DNA of 64,000 nt from an uncultured Bacteroidota bacterium. GTDB taxonomy: Bacteria > Bacteroidota > Bacteroidia > NS11-12g > UBA9320. Made by a program: the position numbers and the translations under genes. Below are positions 32,390 through 51,489 of the stretch, piece after piece. The notes under the pieces were generated by a model. It was not told the origin of the DNA. It ran no database searches and was given only the letters and a program-made list of their open reading frames with translations. The stretch covers positions 62,001-126,000 of the forward strand of contig CAKZLB010000059.1 of the NCBI GenBank assembly GCA_937124965.1, written 5' to 3'. Each line of letters opens with the position of its first letter. Position 1 is the first letter of the stretch.

Positions 32390-33277
32390 CTAGCTTCTTG
32401 GGTGAAACTCCTTTATTACATCTTTTAGATAACCTCTATCTAAGTGAGTATAGATTTCCGTCGTAGTAATTGACTTATGACCCAACATTTGTTGTACTGC
32501 TCTTAAGTCTGCCCCAGCCTCTACCAAACTGGTTGCAAATGAGTGCCTTATCGTATGAGGGCTGACATTCTTTTTTATACCACTTTTTTCAGCAAGTTCT
32601 TTGATAAGCATAAAAATGTACACTCGAGACATTTTGCCGTTTCTCTGGTTTACGAAAAAGTTAGTGGCTTTAGACGCTTGTCCATAAGTCACGTTTCGCT
32701 CCCTTTGATACATAGCTAGTTGTTTAAGCGCAGAACCACCGACTGGAACTAGTCGTTGTTTGTTCCCTTTACCTGTTATCAAAACAAGTTCATCATCGAA
32801 AAGAATATCTCCTACCTTGAGGTTAATGACTTCTGACACTCTTAACCCAGAACTGTACATCAATTCTATAATAGCTCTGTTTCTGTGTCCACCATTTTTA
32901 GAGAGATCGATAAACGAAATCATTGTTTCTATCTCGTGATGATCTAAAACCTCTGGGAGCTTTTTACTAAGTTTGGGTGTTTCGAGAAGTTCAGATGGGT
33001 TCGTTGGAATACTGTCCTCTAATACCAAAAAGTTATAATACGCTTTAACTCCTGAAATTATGCGTGCTTGACTCCTCTCTGACAGACCTAATTCAGAGAC
33101 CCATTTCACAAAGTCGAGCAACTGTTTTAGGTTTAACTTTTCTGGAGAGGTTTTCAACTCTTCACAGTAACAAATCAGTTTATCTAAGTCTGACAGATAC
33201 GCGTCAACGGAATTTTTTGAAAGAGATAATTCTAATTTTAGATATGTTTTAAAACCAGTATAGCTCTTGTTTTTCAT
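32390..33277 (-). CDS. xerD: Site-specific tyrosine recombinase XerD
   Basis: A 295-residue recombinase with an N-terminal SAM-like DNA-binding domain (about 1-90) and a full catalytic set: Arg146 (SSGLRVSEV), Lys170 (TGKGNKQR), His241/Arg244 (HTIRHSFAT), His267 (LGHKSI) and Tyr276 (IYTHLD). It resolves chromosome dimers at dif with a Xer partner; no dif-like site or second recombinase is visible here. The start ATG directly abuts the stop of the upstream Omp28-like gene, so both are cotranscribed. The C-terminal end (IKEFHPRS) is that of chromosomal XerD, not of an integron or phage integrase. Confidence 0.93.
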   Translation of the reverse strand: MKNKSYTGFKTYLKLELSLSKNSVDAYLSDLDKLICYCEELKTSPEKLNLKQLLDFVKWVSELGLSERSQARIISGVKAYYNFLVLEDSIPTNPSELLETPKLSKKLPEVLDHHEIETMISFIDLSKNGGHRNRAIIELMYSSGLRVSEVINLKVGDILFDDELVLITGKGNKQRLVPVGGSALKQLAMYQRERNVTYGQASKATNFFVNQRNGKMSRVYIFMLIKELAEKSGIKKNVSPHTIRHSFATSLVEAGADLRAVQQMLGHKSITTTEIYTHLDRGYLKDVIKEFHPRS

Positions 33278-35226: not shown

Positions 35227-36963
35227 ATGTTTGTACCTTCGTTGTTTATAGTTGTGAAGCATCTTACATCATATTGTATTCTAATTTTATTTGCTGTAAT
35301 CAATTCGAGTGATTCCAATGCTATTACATCTGCTCCAAACTTAATAAGAGCATGTTTGGATATTAATGATAGCACTGTAACAATAGACTATTCGAGTATT
35401 ACTGATGCATGTGGTTCTTTTAATGAGCATCATGTATATGGTTCTGAAACAAGTACCAATTATCGATTACTACATACTGAAACCTCGTTTAATTCAACTA
35501 CCACAAAATTTAAACTACCTAACGCAAATGGAACGTGGTCATTCTTTTTTGAAACCAGGTACAAGTGTAATGGAGTTGATACAGCAAAATCAAATATAAT
35601 TTATATTGATAATCGTCGTCCTGACGATATTGAAATAGACTCTGTTAGCATAGATTACAAAACACAACAAGCCATAGTTGGTTGGACTGCAAACAGTAGT
35701 TCAGACACCAAAGGATATCGAGTTTATACCTTGTCTAATGGTATAAGTAGTTTTGTCGGAGACACGCAATCATTACATTATCTTGTTGAAAATCAATCAA
35801 TAAATAAATTTAGTCAATTTCGCATCGCTGCATTTGATAGCTGCAATCTATTTTCACGGATATCTAATCCGCATAAAGCTATTAGTCTCTCCACAACTTT
35901 GGATACTTGCACCAAAACCGCTCAACTTACATGGACGCCATACGTGGGTTGGCAGACCGATGAGCAAAGAATATTGTATTCAACAAATCAAAGCACGTTC
36001 ACTTCGGTTCCAGTATTGACATCAGATCAAAGTTTTGCTCTATCGAACATCTCATTAGGTGATAGTGTGTGTTTTCTTATTCAATCGAAAAACTTAAGTG
36101 GTTCTATTGAAAGGTCATCAACTTCCAATGCTTCATGTATTAAACTTAAAAAACCAGTATATCCTAAGGAAACTTACTTGTCAAATGTTTCTGTTTCTTC
36201 ACCTACAGAAATTTCCATAGAGTCATATGTTGATAATTATGGAAATGCCGATAGTATATCTCTTTATCGTGGAACCGGTGCAAGTTCGACAAAAATTGGA
36301 TCTCATAAATTATTACAAGGTGCTAATCTCTACGAATGGAATGATAATAACGTAAATACAAATAACTCTAGCGAAACATACTTTGTTCGTACATTTGCCC
36401 CTTGTTTAGGCGGCATTACCTCTTCATTAAATAGTAACACAATTCTACTCAAAATTGATAATGAGATGTTAACTTGGAACGATTATATAAACTGGAGCGG
36501 TGGTGTACTGCATTATGATATTATGGGTTACGATGGTTCCACGTGGAACATATTAAATACTCAATTAGAAACCAGCTATAATACTGTTGACACAACTATT
36601 CAATGTTATAAAGTAGTAGCAAAAGAACGAACTAACAAATTTGGGTTCAGTCGTTCGAGTATGAGCAATGAAGTTTGTGTTAAAAGAGAACCAATATTCT
36701 ATATTCCTAACACTCTGAATCCACTAAGCCACAACCATACATTACGTGTAATTGGGCCAACTATAGATGTTGACAGATCGACAATGATTGTATTTAATCG
36801 CTGGGGAGAACAAATATTTCAAACAAACAACATCAAAGAAGGATGGACCGTAGCTGCTGATAGAGTGTTTATACCAATGGGAATCTATTTCTATGATGTA
36901 TCAATATTTGATTTAGTTGGCAATCGGCATAGAATATCTGGAAGTGTAAGAGTAATTAGATGA
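35227..36963 (+). CDS. Secreted beta-sandwich protein with T9SS type B-like C-terminal domain
   Basis: A 578-residue protein with an N-terminal signal (hydrophobic core about 15-28) and FN3/PKD-like modules with Cys pairs. The C-terminal region (FYIPNTLNPLSHNHTLRVIGP, then VFNRWGEQIFQTNNIKEGW, ending SGSVRVIR) is a type B/CHU_C sorting domain lacking the usual NGDGVND stretch. Its last 4 bp (ATGA) overlap ybeY, so a surface protein heads an operon of core translation genes. A parS-like site lies inside its coding sequence. G is strikingly scarce on this strand, as in the next three genes. Confidence 0.8.
   Translation: MFVPSLFIVVKHLTSYCILILFAVINSSDSNAITSAPNLIRACLDINDSTVTIDYSSITDACGSFNEHHVYGSETSTNYRLLHTETSFNSTTTKFKLPNANGTWSFFFETRYKCNGVDTAKSNIIYIDNRRPDDIEIDSVSIDYKTQQAIVGWTANSSSDTKGYRVYTLSNGISSFVGDTQSLHYLVENQSINKFSQFRIAAFDSCNLFSRISNPHKAISLSTTLDTCTKTAQLTWTPYVGWQTDEQRILYSTNQSTFTSVPVLTSDQSFALSNISLGDSVCFLIQSKNLSGSIERSSTSNASCIKLKKPVYPKETYLSNVSVSSPTEISIESYVDNYGNADSISLYRGTGASSTKIGSHKLLQGANLYEWNDNNVNTNNSSETYFVRTFAPCLGGITSSLNSNTILLKIDNEMLTWNDYINWSGGVLHYDIMGYDGSTWNILNTQLETSYNTVDTTIQCYKVVAKERTNKFGFSRSSMSNEVCVKREPIFYIPNTLNPLSHNHTLRVIGPTIDVDRSTMIVFNRWGEQIFQTNNIKEGWTVAADRVFIPMGIYFYDVSIFDLVGNRHRISGSVRVIR
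36535..36550. other. parS site 1 (ParB-binding centromere site)
   Basis: GGTTCCACGTGGAACA contains the perfect 14-bp palindrome GTTCCACGTGGAAC (36536-36549) and matches the bacterial parS pattern TGTTNCACGTGNAACA at all but the first base. It lies inside the T9SS gene, in frame as Ser-Thr-Trp-Asn, about 4.5 kb from the predicted oriC. Confidence 0.85.
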
Positions 36964-37406
36964 TACAGTATAGTTGGTATAATATCAAGAAGCCTGCTTT
37001 TTTTAACTCCATTACTTCTTGGTTAGAGTTATGTGTTTCTCAACTCTTTACATCTGTTAACAACGTGCATTATATTTTTTGTGATGATAACTATATTCTC
37101 ACCATCAACCGAGAACAACTTGATCATGATTACTTTACAGACATAATTACATTCGATTATAGGGAAGACGAATCAGAACCATTGGAATGCGAAATATTTG
37201 TGAGTATTGACACTGTAAGGGATAATTCATTTATCTATGAAACATCATTCCAGGAAGAACTTATGCGCGTTGTAGTGCATGGTTTACTACATATGTGTGG
37301 GTACAACGATTCTACAGATTCTGAAAAATCTATCATGCGTACAGAAGAAAATAAATTGATAAGTCTATATAATAGTTCCACGTGGAACAACAATATTAAT
37401 GAATAA
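36960..37406 (+). CDS. ybeY: Endoribonuclease/rRNA maturation factor YbeY
   Basis: A 148-residue zinc protein needed for 16S rRNA 3'-end maturation and ribosome quality control. The metal motif is VVVHGLLHMCGYNDSTDSEKSIMRTEE; the third His of the enterobacterial H-x3-H-x5-H pattern is not in place, but related Bacteroidota proteins also end CGYxD here. The N-terminal half has INREQLDHDYFTDIITFDY. It overlaps the gene before by 4 bp and mnmG by 8 bp. The second parS site lies in its last codons. Confidence 0.9.
   Translation: MIQYSWYNIKKPAFFNSITSWLELCVSQLFTSVNNVHYIFCDDNYILTINREQLDHDYFTDIITFDYREDESEPLECEIFVSIDTVRDNSFIYETSFQEELMRVVVHGLLHMCGYNDSTDSEKSIMRTEENKLISLYNSSTWNNNINE
37374..37389. other. 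parS site 2 (ParB-binding centromere site)
   Basis: AGTTCCACGTGGAACA carries the same perfect 14-bp palindrome (37375-37388). It lies in the last codons of ybeY, 10 bp before the mnmG start, 839 bp from site 1. It also reads Ser-Thr-Trp-Asn in frame. Confidence 0.88.
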
Positions 37407-39258
37407 TACATATGATCTAATTGTAGTTGGTGCTGGACATGCTGGTTGTGAAGCAGCGCATGCAGCTGCAATGCTAGGCAGCAAAGTGTTGTTGATTACA
37501 ATGAATATGGAAGCTATTGCAAAAATGTCATGTAATCCTGCAATGGGCGGAGTAGCGAAAGGACAAATCGTTCGTGAAATTGATGCACTTGGTGGTATGA
37601 GCGGAATAATATCTGACAAATCTGCTATTCAGTTTCGAATGTTAAACCGATCTAAGGGCGCAGCAATGTGGAGTCCTAGAACACAAAACGATAGAATAAT
37701 GTTTTCCAACCTTTGGAGGGAAGCGTTAGAAGAAAACCAAAATGTGTCAATGTTCCAAGATATGGTTTCATCGTTACTTATAAAAAACAACAAACTGACA
37801 GGTGTTGTGACAGCAATGGGATTTACATTCCACGCAAAATCAGTAGTACTTACAAGTGGTACATTTATGAACGGTTTAATTCATATTGGCCGTAATCAAT
37901 TTGGTGGTGGACGAATGGCAGAAAAAGCCTCTACCGGCATCACTGAACAACTTGTGTCTTTAGGTTTTGAATCTGGCCGTATGAAAACTGGAACACCTCC
38001 TCGTGTTGATGGACGTACGTTGGATTATTCCGTAATGGAGGAACAAAAAGGAGATGAACAACCTTCATCCTTCTCATTTCAACCTACTACAATATTAAAA
38101 GAACAAAGGAGCTGTCATATCACATATACAAACCCAGCTGTTCACGAAACTTTACAAAAGGGTTTCTTAGATAGTCCCATGTTTAATGGAACAATTAATA
38201 GTATAGGTCCTCGGTACTGTCCAAGTATAGAAGACAAAATCAATCGTTTTGCCGAAAGAGATCGTCATCAAATATTTGTTGAACCCGAAGGTTGGAATAC
38301 CGTAGAAATCTATGTTAATGGTTTCTCCACTTCCTTACCCGCAGAAATACAAATAGAAGCAATGCAGTTAATTCCTGGTTTTAAAAATGCTAAAATATTT
38401 CGTCCTGGTTACGCTATTGAGTACGACTTTTTTCCTCCTACTCAACTTAAAATAAATCTTGAGACCAAGCTAATTGATAATCTATTCTTTGCAGGACAAA
38501 TAAATGGAACCACAGGTTATGAAGAAGCTGGATGCCAAGGTTTAATGGCGGGAATCAATGCACATCTAAAAATAAATGGTTCCGAGCCGTTCGTTTTAAG
38601 TCGTTCTGAAGCATACATAGGTGTTCTAATCGATGACCTTATTAATAAAGGCACCAAAGAACCATACAGAATGTTTACATCTCGTGCAGAATACAGAATT
38701 CTCCTAAGACAAGACAATGCGGATTTAAGACTAACCGAAAAAGCACATGCACTAGGGTTAGCTTCACAAGAAAGGTTAAATAGATTAATAACAAAACAAA
38801 CAGAACTAAATTCACTAAAGTCCTATATAGAAGAAACTAGTATTCCTCCTGAAGAAATAAATCCTATTCTCGTAGAAAAAGGTACCAACACGGTTGATCA
38901 AAAATATAAATTCAAAAAACTACTCTCTAGACCACAATTACACATAGAAGATTTTGAAACTGTTAAAACAGTTTCTTCATTCTTAAAAAAACACGATCAA
39001 CTCGTAAAAGAACAAGTAGAAATACTAATTAAGTATCATAACTATATTCAAAAAGAAAAAGAAATGGCCGACAAACTCACAAAGTTTGATAAGCTTACAA
39101 TTAAACCCAACTTTGACTATTCAATTCTGTCTTCTTTATCTGCAGAGGCACAAGAAAAACTTTCTACTATAAAACCAACAACCATTGGACAAGCCAGCAG
39201 AATTAGTGGTGTTAGTCCTTCAGACATTTCTGTATTATTAGTTTACTTCGGACGATGA
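37399..39258 (+). CDS. mnmG: tRNA uridine-5-carboxymethylaminomethyl modification enzyme MnmG (GidA)
   Basis: A 619-residue FAD protein that, with MnmE, modifies U34 of several tRNAs. Motifs: VGAGHAGCEAA (FAD dinucleotide fold, residues ~8-18), CNPAMGGVAKGQIVREIDALGG, GTFMNGLIHIGR, RMKTGTPPRVDGRT, FFAGQINGTTGYEEAGCQGLMAGINA and RAEYRILLRQDNADLRLT. The C-terminal helical domain is complete. mnmG (gidA) near the replication origin is a classic arrangement. Its ATGA stop overlaps the next gene. Confidence 0.97.
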   Translation: MNNTYDLIVVGAGHAGCEAAHAAAMLGSKVLLITMNMEAIAKMSCNPAMGGVAKGQIVREIDALGGMSGIISDKSAIQFRMLNRSKGAAMWSPRTQNDRIMFSNLWREALEENQNVSMFQDMVSSLLIKNNKLTGVVTAMGFTFHAKSVVLTSGTFMNGLIHIGRNQFGGGRMAEKASTGITEQLVSLGFESGRMKTGTPPRVDGRTLDYSVMEEQKGDEQPSSFSFQPTTILKEQRSCHITYTNPAVHETLQKGFLDSPMFNGTINSIGPRYCPSIEDKINRFAERDRHQIFVEPEGWNTVEIYVNGFSTSLPAEIQIEAMQLIPGFKNAKIFRPGYAIEYDFFPPTQLKINLETKLIDNLFFAGQINGTTGYEEAGCQGLMAGINAHLKINGSEPFVLSRSEAYIGVLIDDLINKGTKEPYRMFTSRAEYRILLRQDNADLRLTEKAHALGLASQERLNRLITKQTELNSLKSYIEETSIPPEEINPILVEKGTNTVDQKYKFKKLLSRPQLHIEDFETVKTVSSFLKKHDQLVKEQVEILIKYHNYIQKEKEMADKLTKFDKLTIKPNFDYSILSSLSAEAQEKLSTIKPTTIGQASRISGVSPSDISVLLVYFGR

Positions 39259-40847
39259 AATATTACCTAGCCTATCTAATACTATTGTTACTTTCCTCAT
39301 GTGCTTCAATTGACTTACCTCCTGGTGGTGATAAAGATATTTTGGCACCTGTCATATTAGAATCTACACCTAGTTCAGAACAAACACTATTTACAGGAAA
39401 CACTATACGAATTGTATTTGATGAATACTTTTCTCTTAATAATTTTAACACCAATCTTCTAGTTTCTCCACCTTTAAATGTTCCTCCTAAAACAAAAATA
39501 AAAGGCAAGACTCTGTATCTAAATCTTCAGGAAGAATTATTGCCAAACGTTACCTATCAATTCTATTTCGGTGAAGGAATTGTAGATTTAAATGAAGGTA
39601 ATAAAACCAAAGACTTACGTTTGGTATTTTCTACTGGTCCATCTTTAGATACAAACGTTGTTTCAGGATATACTCTTGATGCTTTTACAAAAGAAACTTT
39701 AGGTGATATTAAACTTCTGCTTTACAAGGAATATCAAGATAGTCAATTGTTGAATGGTCAACCATATTATATTACAAAATCTGACAAAAACGGATCGTTT
39801 ACTTTTAATAATATCAGTGATAAAGATTTCTTTCTTTATGCAATAGACGATCAAAACAATAACAACAAATTAGATATAGATGAATCTTTCGCTGTTTGTG
39901 ATACAATTATTAACCATAAGAGTAAAGCACCCTCCCTCATGCTTTCCAAACAAATCCAAACAAAAACTTTACAACTCTCTCGGTTAGAGCAGCCCATTAT
40001 TGGTCAATATAAATGTGTATTTAATCAACCGCTAAAACTTTCAAACGTACTATTAAAATCCACTTCATTACAACCTAGTAGTAAAACAGGGAAGGTTTTA
40101 TGGCACTTTGGTAAAACCTCTGATACTTTATTTTTCTATGATACTAATAAACAAACAAATGATTCAATTTACACATTGATACATAACAAGGACACCATAG
40201 ACATCAATTTAAAAAATGCAAAAACCAATCCTATAGAATTTATCTCAAAAATTGATATACCCCAAATTACACCAACTCTACCGATAACCATTAATGTTAA
40301 TTATGCGGTTGAAAAGACCAATTCAACATTAATACGATTAACTGATCTTACTGATTCTGCTGTTATAGCTATAGACAGCATTACTATAGATCAATTAAAC
40401 AAAATTAAGATAGCTTCAGAAATAAAAGAAGGACACAATTATGAATTTGTTTTTTACAAAGGCTCCGTAACATATATTAATGGAAAAACCAATATATCTG
40501 ATACGATTAAACAACAAGTCATTCAAAAAACTGAAACAGGAGAAATAGAACTAAAAGTATTATTCTCTTCTGATAGCTCACCAAGAAAAACTATTATCCT
40601 GGTCATAGAAGGAAAGAATAATAGATTAGATAATATTGTTTGCACTTCCGATACTTTAATAACTAAAACATTTCTAAAACCAGACAAATATTCCGTTTAT
40701 GCTTTTGAAGATTTAGATGAAAACGATGAGTGGACGCCAGCCAATTATTTAAAAAAAATAGAACCAGAGCCTATTTGGAGGCTAAAATCACCTATAGATG
40801 TAAGAAAAAATTGGAGTAACAAAAATATAGAACTAAAAATTAATTAA
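39255..40847 (+). CDS. Ig-like (SbsA/Big_5-type) domain lipoprotein
   Basis: A 530-residue lipoprotein (lipobox LLLSSC, Cys16) with the Bacteroidota signature CASIDLPPGGDKDILAPVILESTPSSEQTLF and an N-terminal Ig-like domain (IRIVFDEYFSLNNF, about 50-125). The remainder is beta-rich, and a metallochaperone-like stretch DEDQNNNNKLD is absent in favour of AIDDQNNNNKLDIDESFA, an acidic Asn-rich loop. Function unknown; outer-membrane or periplasmic location is likely. It overlaps mnmG by 4 bp and ends at the left border of the presumed oriC. Confidence 0.85.
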   Translation: MKYYLAYLILLLLSSCASIDLPPGGDKDILAPVILESTPSSEQTLFTGNTIRIVFDEYFSLNNFNTNLLVSPPLNVPPKTKIKGKTLYLNLQEELLPNVTYQFYFGEGIVDLNEGNKTKDLRLVFSTGPSLDTNVVSGYTLDAFTKETLGDIKLLLYKEYQDSQLLNGQPYYITKSDKNGSFTFNNISDKDFFLYAIDDQNNNNKLDIDESFAVCDTIINHKSKAPSLMLSKQIQTKTLQLSRLEQPIIGQYKCVFNQPLKLSNVLLKSTSLQPSSKTGKVLWHFGKTSDTLFFYDTNKQTNDSIYTLIHNKDTIDINLKNAKTNPIEFISKIDIPQITPTLPITINVNYAVEKTNSTLIRLTDLTDSAVIAIDSITIDQLNKIKIASEIKEGHNYEFVFYKGSVTYINGKTNISDTIKQQVIQKTETGEIELKVLFSSDSSPRKTIILVIEGKNNRLDNIVCTSDTLITKTFLKPDKYSVYAFEDLDENDEWTPANYLKKIEPEPIWRLKSPIDVRKNWSNKNIELKIN

Positions 40848-41106
40848 AGTACTGATAATCAATTATTTAAAAAATATTTAAAATGTTAGTATTCTGTTCT
40901 TTTTATGTTGATAAACCAAACTAACAAAAAAAAAATTAGGCATTGGTTCATAACAGTCAATTTACCAAAAGTTAACCCAAGCAATTTGCACATAAATTGT
41001 GAGAAACACTTTTCAACATATTTTAACTATACCTTTTTTATATCAACACAAAACAAAAAGACACCATTAAAATAAAGAGACATAAGAAAATAAAATTCAT
41101 ATACCT

Positions 41107-41115
41107 TGTGAATAA
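41107..41115 (-). other. DnaA box
   Basis: TTATTCACA on the minus strand, a full match to TTATNCACA, 27 bp from the second consensus box on the opposite strand. Confidence 0.65.
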
Positions 41116-41142
41116 AAAAACATAGTTTTAAAAAAGATTTGC

Positions 41143-41151
41143 TTATCCACA
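41143..41151 (+). other. DnaA box
   Basis: TTATCCACA, the strongest DnaA-box sequence. A weaker AAATCCACA follows, sharing one base with it at 41151-41159. Confidence 0.7.
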
Positions 41152-41250
41152 AATCCACAGCACTAATAAAGAAATAAGAATTTAAATAATTAAGTATAAT
41201 ACTTATAGAAGTGTGTTAAAAGGTTCATCAAACAAATAAATTTTCTGAAG

Positions 41251-41258
41251 TACTTTTG
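41251..41258 (+). promoter_or_regulatory. -7 promoter box 5 nt before pheS
   Basis: TACTTTTG, then CCTCG, then ATG 41264. It marks the right border of the presumed oriC and drives pheS away from it. Confidence 0.6.
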
Positions 41259-41263
41259 CCTCG

Positions 41264-42277
41264 ATGAAGGAGCAGATAAAAAAAGTTTTGAAAGAGATTG
41301 AGGATTTTGAAATCTTAACAGAAGAGAACTTAGAAAATTTTAGAAAAAACTTTTTATCAAAAAAGGGAGCAATTGGAGAGTTGCTTGAAAACTTCAAAAA
41401 GTTAGAAAAAGAGGAAAAGAAAATTTTTGGTGCTGATTTAAACAGTTTAAAAAAACAAGCAGAAGAAAAGTTTGGAGTAAAAAAAGATTCTTTAGTAAGT
41501 GGACAAGAAGAAAAAAATGATTTGGATTTAAGCCTACCCGGACAAAGAATGCCACAAGGGTCAAGACATCCATTATCAATTGTACAAAACACAATGATAA
41601 ATATTTTTAAAGAAATGGGTTTTTCTTTATCTGTGGGGCCAGAAATTGAAGATGACTGGCATAATTTTTCTGCATTAAACTTTCCAGAGAATCATCCTGC
41701 AAGAGATATGCAGGACACATTTTTTATTGAAAAAGATATTTCTCTACGTACTCATACTTCTTCGGTTCAGGTAAGAGTAATGGAAGAAAATGAACCACCT
41801 ATAAGAACAATATCCCCAGGGCGTGTGTATAGAAACGAAGCAATAAGTGCACGATCAAATAGTTTCTTTCATCAAATTGAAGGTCTATATATTGATAAAG
41901 GAGTATCATTTGCAGACCTTAAACAAACCTTATTTCATTTTGTACAAAGATTTTTTGGAGAAAAAACAGAGGTTCGTTTTAGACCAAGTTATTTTCCTTT
42001 TACAGAGCCGAGTGCAGAGATGGATATTTACTTAGGAACAGGGACAGAAGAGGATTATAGATTAACCAAGGGTACAGGATGGCTAGAAATATTAGGCTGC
42101 GGTATGGTAGATGTTAATGTTTTGGAGAATTGCGGTATTGATCCAAAAGTATTTAGTGGTTTTGCTTTTGGTATGGGAATAGAAAGAATAACAATGTTCC
42201 AATATGGTGTGAAAGATATTAGGACTTTATTTGAAAATGATAAAAGGTTTTTAGATCAATTTAAAACACTAACATAA
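41264..42277 (+). CDS. pheS: Phenylalanine-tRNA ligase alpha subunit
   Basis: A 337-residue class II aminoacyl-tRNA synthetase subunit. The N-terminal coiled coil (about 1-85) contacts tRNA. The catalytic core shows HPLSIVQNTMINIFKEMGFSLSVGPEIEDDWHNFSALNFPENHPARDMQDTFF-type motif 1/2 residues, RTHTSSVQVRVM, GRVYRNEAISARSNSFFHQIEGLYID, and motif 3 GFAFGMGIERITMFQYGVKDIR. It loads Phe onto tRNA-Phe together with PheT, which is not in the window. It is transcribed away from the presumed origin. tRNA-Pro starts 6 nt after its stop. Confidence 0.97.
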   Translation: MKEQIKKVLKEIEDFEILTEENLENFRKNFLSKKGAIGELLENFKKLEKEEKKIFGADLNSLKKQAEEKFGVKKDSLVSGQEEKNDLDLSLPGQRMPQGSRHPLSIVQNTMINIFKEMGFSLSVGPEIEDDWHNFSALNFPENHPARDMQDTFFIEKDISLRTHTSSVQVRVMEENEPPIRTISPGRVYRNEAISARSNSFFHQIEGLYIDKGVSFADLKQTLFHFVQRFFGEKTEVRFRPSYFPFTEPSAEMDIYLGTGTEEDYRLTKGTGWLEILGCGMVDVNVLENCGIDPKVFSGFAFGMGIERITMFQYGVKDIRTLFENDKRFLDQFKTLT

Positions 42278-42283
42278 AAATTA

Positions 42284-42358
42284 CGGGATGTAGCTTAGTC
42301 CGGTTAAAGTGCTCGTCTGGGGGGCGAGAGATCGGAGGTTCAAATCCTCTCATCCCGA
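42284..42358 (+). tRNA. tRNA-Pro (anticodon GGG)
   Basis: A full cloverleaf. The acceptor arm CGGGATG pairs with CATCCCG, with discriminator A at 42358. The anticodon stem CTCGT/GCGAG encloses the loop CTGGGGG (anticodon GGG), and the T arm has GGTTCAAATCC. The 3' CCA is not encoded. It lies 6 nt after pheS and 6 nt before the next ORF, so it is probably cut out of a shared transcript. Confidence 0.97.
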
Positions 42359-42364
42359 CTAAAA

Positions 42365-51115: not shown

Positions 51116-51485
51116 GGGGCTGACTGGATTTGACGGGAGGGCCAATTAACAGGTAAGCATGTAGAGCGTTGTGGGCATTGCTCTTTAATATAAACCTACA
51201 AACACATAAAAGGCGAGTCTAACTACGCTATGGCTGCTTAATCTTAGAGATTAAACAAATACCATCCGCTCACCGTTGCTCAGTTGGGGCTGCGACGGAT
51301 CATGAGCGGTCGAAATGCCCGAATAGTTGATTGTAACATCTGCGCGCAGTTGACTTATTAGCAGAATAAGGGTGAAAAGAGGTCTTTACCTAACCTTGTT
51401 CACCTCGAAAATAATAGGTAATAAACATGTAGAAAGCTTGATTTAATTCCTTCTCCGGACCCGGGTTCGACTCCCGGCAGCTCCA
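51116..51485 (+). ncRNA. ssrA: tmRNA (transfer-messenger RNA)
   Basis: About 370 nt, rescues stalled ribosomes. The tRNA-like ends pair GGGGCTG (51116-51122) with CAGCTCC (51478-51484), discriminator A 51485; CCA is not encoded. The 5' domain reads TGGATTTGACGGG and the T arm CCGGGTTCGACTCCCGG. The tag frame at 51212-51241 encodes GESNYAMAA and stops with TAA. The intervening part holds several pseudoknot-like G/C stems. Confidence 0.97.
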
Positions 51486-51489
51486 CTTA

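Follow-up and report, generated by a model that had tools for sequence, protein, structure and literature searches.

In chromosomes of the E. coli type, oriC adjoins mnmG (gidA). A gidA-adjacent oriC is described for Gammaproteobacteria in PMC6323995, and origins next to mnmG have been reported in two Flavobacteriaceae. In Mariniflexile litorale Ori-Finder 2022 placed oriC at mnmG in agreement with the GC skew, and the position of dnaA did not fit (PMC11278836, which is inconsistent in that its main text puts oriC near mnmG and a figure legend labels ter as mnmG); in Algorimicrobium bowmanii an oriC at mnmG, assigned with Ori-Finder 2022, likewise fits the GC skew (PMC12843772). For gut bacteria it was reported that origins are not always located at dnaA and can be found by parS and skew, and the parS consensus of ParABS systems was given as TGTTTCACGTGAAACA (PMC10197239). 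The locus described here resembles the Flavobacteriaceae cases in having the origin at mnmG and in fitting the skew (PMC11278836, PMC12843772), but differs in that it is localised to a gap between an Ig-like gene and pheS, which contains a conserved tandem pair of DnaA boxes. It also resembles the basal unwinding system (BUS) of Bacillus subtilis and other bacteria: tandem boxes with the better match upstream are followed, after a short spacer, by an AT-rich, repeat-like tract in fixed orientation (PMC8287927, PMC6669920). With the E. coli type it shares the mnmG neighbour and the distant dnaA, whereas the other neighbours differ. Blattabacterium is a flavobacterial symbiont. According to the account in PMC2768785, neither DnaA boxes nor dnaA were found in it, and skew put the origin in dapB. 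A limited literature search yielded no paper on pheS as an origin neighbour in Bacteroidetes.

The stretch of DNA analysed (the window, 64,000 bp) corresponds to C59:62001-126000 of a draft genome of 4.09 Mb in 79 contigs, whose source organism was placed in Bacteroidota via its PheS relatives. The AT-rich, gene-free gap at 40848..41263, between an Ig-like (Big_5) lipoprotein gene (39255..40847, plus strand) and pheS (41264..42277, plus strand), is with high confidence the chromosomal oriC. On the left, mnmG/gidA (37399..39258, plus strand) and ybeY, coding for the YbeY endoribonuclease (36960..37406, plus strand), are conserved origin-flanking genes. The gap is 416 bp long and has an AT content of 76.4% (63.2% in the window); of the window's 416-bp stretches, 0.15% reach this value, and the most AT-rich of all begins at 40792 and overlaps the gap. 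The length and AT-richness given to the gap in the initial annotation were borne out, and no convincing gene was found inside it; a minus-strand ORF of 129 aa (41203-41592) overlaps its end and lies mostly within pheS. The surroundings also include a tRNA-Pro(GGG) gene directly 3' of pheS (42284-42359), a tmRNA gene 10 kb to the right of the origin (51116-51486, predicted tag GESNYAMAA), and about 8 kb to the left a tyrosine-recombinase gene of the phage-integrase family (XerC/D-like; 32390-33277, minus strand), which is retained there in many family-f1 relatives.

The gene order around the gap is conserved. Among 58 genomes searched, own genome included, pheS was present in 49, mnmG in 51 and both genes in 47; by hand count, again with the own genome included, mnmG was located within about 5 kb upstream of pheS and on the same strand in 42 of these 47. 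The usual order in the fetched loci was ybeY-mnmG-(Ig gene)-gap-pheS, mostly with CHU_C before ybeY; in five loci of the usual order the place of the Ig gene was taken by an ORF that had no blast match to it. In three genomes (G007, G033, G040) mnmG and pheS were on different contigs, and in two (G037 and G049) they were rearranged. In the latter two genomes (contig C4 of G037 with loci L173, L174 and L218-L226; L175 in G049), the two genes are apart or in another order, no box pair is present in the gap before pheS, and parS, tested in G037, remains with mnmG. In these genomes the origin seems to have moved. It was located in neither of them; over 202 kb of G037 no convincing box pair was present at the best change point of skew, and this change point (about 244 kb, log-likelihood gain 50) is confounded by gene direction, because every gene counted to the right of it is a plus-strand gene. 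Two records deserve mention on other grounds: at G004:C3:489746-491598 mnmG is split into two overlapping frames with an internal stop, perhaps an assembly error, and CAMDBP010000005.1 (64434 bases), a MAG record of Chitinophaga pinensis, has the same gene layout as G022 of the window's family, so that the species name is probably wrong.

Scanning of the gap for DnaA boxes confirmed the two consensus boxes that had been noticed on opposite strands 27 bp apart: TTATTCACA at 41107..41115 on the minus strand and the perfect box TTATCCACA at 41143..41151 on the plus strand. A third site with one mismatch, TTATCAACA at 40906..40914 on the minus strand, was also as previously described. What had been missed was a second box, AAATCCACA at 41151..41159 (plus strand), which has two mismatches and shares one base with the perfect box, its upstream partner in a tandem pair. 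The tandem pair (41143-41159) outscored all 100 dinucleotide shuffles of the gap and is conserved in two aligned congeners, unlike the minus-strand box at 41107; in G003 its first box reads TTATCCACG. Where the window has the 40906 site, congeners have box-like sequences, TTATTAACA in two and TTATACACA in one, about equally far from the gap start, and in two congeners TTATCAACA aligns with the TTATTAACA-class site. By simple counting, the window as a whole had no excess of boxes: TTATNCACA was found 4 times (4.13 expected) and one-mismatch boxes 20 times (22.3 expected). Since single boxes occur at chance level window-wide, the presence of a box alone is weak evidence. Two of the four TTATNCACA sites, however, are in the gap, which makes up 0.65% of the window length, and the concentration of boxes in the gap together with their tandem arrangement is unlikely by chance.

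The box pair was studied in a set of 42 gaps, from which a duplicate (L002, the same as L191) and two loci with gaps shorter than 150 bp (L006, L057) had been dropped; the set included the rearranged L174 and L175, and no two gaps were identical. Gap length was between 300 and 461 bp in 40 of 44 loci. A tandem pair better than in shuffled sequences (p<=0.05) was present in 28 of the 42 gaps, and in the other 14 the pair was not better than in shuffles. In 32 of 42 the best pair site had the orientation of pheS and lay 50-225 bp ahead of its ORF. Box-pair scores exceeded those of 89 further intergenic gaps from these loci (p 5e-17), a comparison in which the control gaps were shorter on average (275 vs 391 bp) and in which, as with all pooled p-values here, independence is overstated by the relatedness of the genomes. 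The most over-represented 7-mer was ATCCACA, with 34 occurrences in 40 gaps (shuffle mean 1.5) and 2 in 83 other gaps; a second class, TTATTAACA, occurred 18 times in 40 gaps (shuffle mean 2.4) and was absent from the 83 other intergenic gaps. The usual layout on the pheS strand was a 17-bp tandem pair, a short GC-rich spacer and an AT-rich tract, in this order, before pheS. Nine gaps, all of family f2 (L171, L176, L178-L184), contain CACGTG, a parS-like centre, and in G054 (L181) boxes are present and the skew does not change sign at pheS. In three congeners (L153-L155) a minus-strand box-like sequence, TTATCCACGG or TTGTCCACGG, followed by TAGTAATA, was seen about 53 bp before pheS; this may possibly be a second, opposed unwinding site. 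The same scan detected no such opposed minus-strand box with TAGTAATA in the window.

On the 159,251-bp contig that contains the window, the cumulative GC-skew minimum, which had been proposed for the whole genome as a check of the origin, fell inside the gap, at window position 41163. Of all change points of third-position skew along 126 ORFs, the best was between 40847 and 41264, and none of 1000 gene-order permutations gave one as good. In the five blocks to the left of the gap (blocks of up to 20 kb each, cut at the gap) the skew was negative on both gene strands, and in the three blocks to the right every strand with counted genes was positive. Recounting the bases gave the same numbers as before for the two short segments on which the skew switch had been noticed (3 G and 10 C at 40201-40260, 12 G and 3 C at 41281-41340).

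Two parS-like sites with the core GTTCCACGTGGAAC are located at 36535..36550 and, just before mnmG, at 37374..37389. The exact core GTTNCACGTGNAAC occurs in the own genome only at these two places beside ybeY and mnmG, 3.5-4.3 kb to the left of the gap, in line with the expectation that parS sites cluster near the origin; a longer parS pattern with one mismatch allowed revealed one further site in the own genome, on contig C16. The same two-core arrangement was found in seven of the eight other genomes tested. In total, eight of the nine genomes had two exact cores and Polaribacter BM10 had one, each beside ybeY/mnmG, whereas a reversed control pattern gave a single match in two of the nine (G004 and G053). 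The palindromic GTTNCACGTGNAAC sites near the origin are like those of known ParABS systems, the differences being that a genome has no more than two exact cores, around ybeY, and that parB is distant or on another contig, as was the case in all nine genomes. The gene for DnaA is on another contig in the own genome and about 0.85-1.2 Mb from the origin in three relatives with large contigs (dnaA at 1.26 and origin at 2.11 Mb in G016, 1.49 and 0.41 Mb in G053, 1.28 Mb and the region of about 2.46 Mb in Polaribacter), so the statement that the origin is not next to dnaA holds.

The location of the parS sites raises the alternative that replication starts elsewhere around ybeY, mnmG and pheS, in a different gap or within a gene (near parS at 36.5-37.4 kb, for instance), and that the pheS gap is merely nearby. 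The two change points that rank next, one gene to either side, trail by only 5.3 log units (between 42277 and 42365) and 6.6 log units (at 39255), and in Polaribacter BM10, where pheS is about 40 kb from mnmG, skew changes at about 2.45-2.48 Mb, with the minimum of the 80 kb read at 2462837, 12.6 kb from mnmG. A search of these 80 kb for box pairs gave no convincing site; the best origin candidate in this genome, the AT-rich gap 2463606-2464453 with two TTATCAACA sites, is unproven. In the own contig, on the other hand, it is the pheS gap that is the best change point and that harbours the conserved box pair. Pooling of 45 loci, four of them with broken gene order, pointed to the same place: plus-strand skew was -0.28 at 1-2 kb to the left of pheS (38 genes), -0.25 at 0-1 kb (7 genes) and +0.16 at 0-1 kb to the right (45 genes, mainly pheS). 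Against this trend, 19 minus-strand genes within 6 kb to the left were positive, 17 of them from the four broken-order loci; beyond 7 kb to the left the pooled skew was mixed, and in the single locus L192 (G011) the skew to the right of pheS was mixed. An origin elsewhere in this neighbourhood is, on balance, improbable.

Slighter still is the chance that the gap is just the promoter and leader of pheS, with the conserved blocks regulating this gene. The pheS promoter must lie here, and the conserved tract to the right of the boxes (see below) ends 83 bp before pheS. However, no Rfam family attains its gathering score in the gap (40848-41263), the conserved block contains the DnaA-box pair, and neither the sign change of the skew nor the placement of parS would be expected of a promoter. 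The two roles are compatible and can coexist in the same gap.

The extent of the skew switch was assessed in relatives with large contigs by sampling 20-kb stretches and taking the mean third-position skew of the two gene strands. In each genome the boundary between two adjoining stretches was set near the junction of the Ig gene and pheS, which gives the comparison a resolution of 20 kb. For G016, 20 stretches of contig 1 (2.41 Mb) were sampled, one of them without countable ORFs. All seven between 0 and 0.80 Mb had positive skew, the value at 0.91 Mb was -0.02, and all nine between 1.04 and 2.107 Mb were negative; the two that follow were positive, the start of pheS being at 2.108 Mb. For G053, with pheS at 0.406 Mb, 15 stretches of contig 1 (1.79 Mb) were sampled: the four to the left of the junction were all negative, the ten between 0.405 and 1.58 Mb all positive, and the one at 1.69 Mb negative. 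Single strands deviated in sign in some stretches. On each side of the Ig-pheS junction the mean kept its sign, in both genomes and as far as sampled, over 0.3 to 1.2 Mb of the contig. The skew switch is a genome-scale signal and no local effect; with the change point in the own contig, this answers the earlier concern that the flip might be confined to a few genes. The idea that chance boxes in AT-rich DNA coincide with a local shift in skew, brought about by gene composition or an inversion, draws on the lack of TTATNCACA enrichment in the window as a whole. It has hardly any probability left: in the own contig the change is seen in genes of either strand, in relatives it extends over 0.3-1.2 Mb, 0 of 1000 permutations matched it, and the boxes are conserved in place and orientation.

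The gap before pheS thus combines what is looked for in an oriC: a GC-skew minimum in the own 159-kb contig and in the sampled large contigs of two relatives, DnaA boxes above chance (the tandem pair) in non-coding DNA of high AT rank, and a position conserved in 42 of 47 genomes. Its interpretation as the replication origin in the initial annotation is supported by skew, the conserved box pair, gene order and parS placement; the skew switch, the conserved gap and gene order, the fixed orientation of the pair, the placement of parS and the distance to dnaA and parB are all computed observations. In the mechanism envisaged, DnaA, encoded elsewhere, would bind the tandem boxes at 41143-41159 and probably also the site further upstream at about 40906. 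A DnaA oligomer would grow from the tandem boxes to the right, onto 41164-41180, and AT-rich DNA in front of pheS would be opened, for which the stretch at 41181..41215 is, from its sequence, a candidate unwinding region. Two forks would then depart in opposite directions, and the parS pair 3.5-4.3 kb to the left, if bound by ParB, would serve the segregation of the new origins.

Between the boxes and the right-hand part of the gap lie a short GC-rich spacer, GCAC (41160..41163, plus strand), recognised by its sequence and by the pattern across relatives, and a purine-rich tract, TAATAAAGAAATAAGAA (41164..41180, plus strand), proposed as an unwinding element. When three genomes were aligned (mean identity 77%), no other invariant run was as long as this tract (17 columns, the next being 10), and all five members of the genus (G000-G004) have it, identical, next to the box pair. 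By eye, related purine-rich tracts are present in G005, G007, G009, G015, G017 and G019; other relatives are TA-rich at this position, partly with repeats like DnaA-trios. Canonical trio-type repeats follow right after the boxes in G053 (ATA ATA CTA ATA CTA TTA), G029, G022 and others, and the presence of such CTA/TTA repeats in several relatives adds to the likeness to BUS.

The DnaA-trio is given as 3'-GAT-5' in PMC6669920, and the trio-bearing sequence of C. difficile is printed as CACCTACTACTATTACTACTATGA in PMC7561715. Following our reading of these two papers as to the strand, NTN triplets of the box strand were scored as trios. A rule patterned after that of PMC8287927 was tested against 60 shuffles per gap. 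It gave p<=0.05 in 10 of 40 gaps, in 5 of these at the conserved pair. In the window, the tract begins at 41164, close enough to the pair at 41143-41159 for a BUS, in which the repeats lie no more than 16 bp from a DnaA box, often tandem, but instead of at least three DnaA-trios (3'-NAN-5') beside the box there are only two after the tandem pair. Two other trio candidates in the gap have four and three trios, the better with p=0.36, which is chance level. TA-rich trios were consequently rejected as a description of the window's tract.

Because all five genus members carry the purine-rich 17-mer instead of trios, they fall outside the published trio definition. The window's genus thus departs from BUS in that its tract is purine-rich on the box strand and lacks three trios in the published sense, and the window's genome in that dnaA is not adjacent. 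As a tentative and rather doubtful explanation we propose that in this genus and some neighbouring genera a strand-asymmetric purine-rich tract has replaced the canonical DnaA-trios beside the same tandem boxes, so that DnaA would open the origin by way of another single-strand motif or on the opposite strand. It is the position and the conservation of the tract that suggest it may stand in for the trios.

An oriC adjacent to mnmG has already been reported for Flavobacteriaceae, and the new angle is the non-canonical tract. In this group of Bacteroidota the origin is fixed to a conserved gap of about 0.3-0.46 kb; consequently, growth-rate estimates from read depth and the rotation of genomes should use mnmG/pheS and not dnaA. 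Moreover, some relatives have canonical trios next to this box pair and others do not, and comparing the two makes substitutes for DnaA-trios testable with short DNA substrates.
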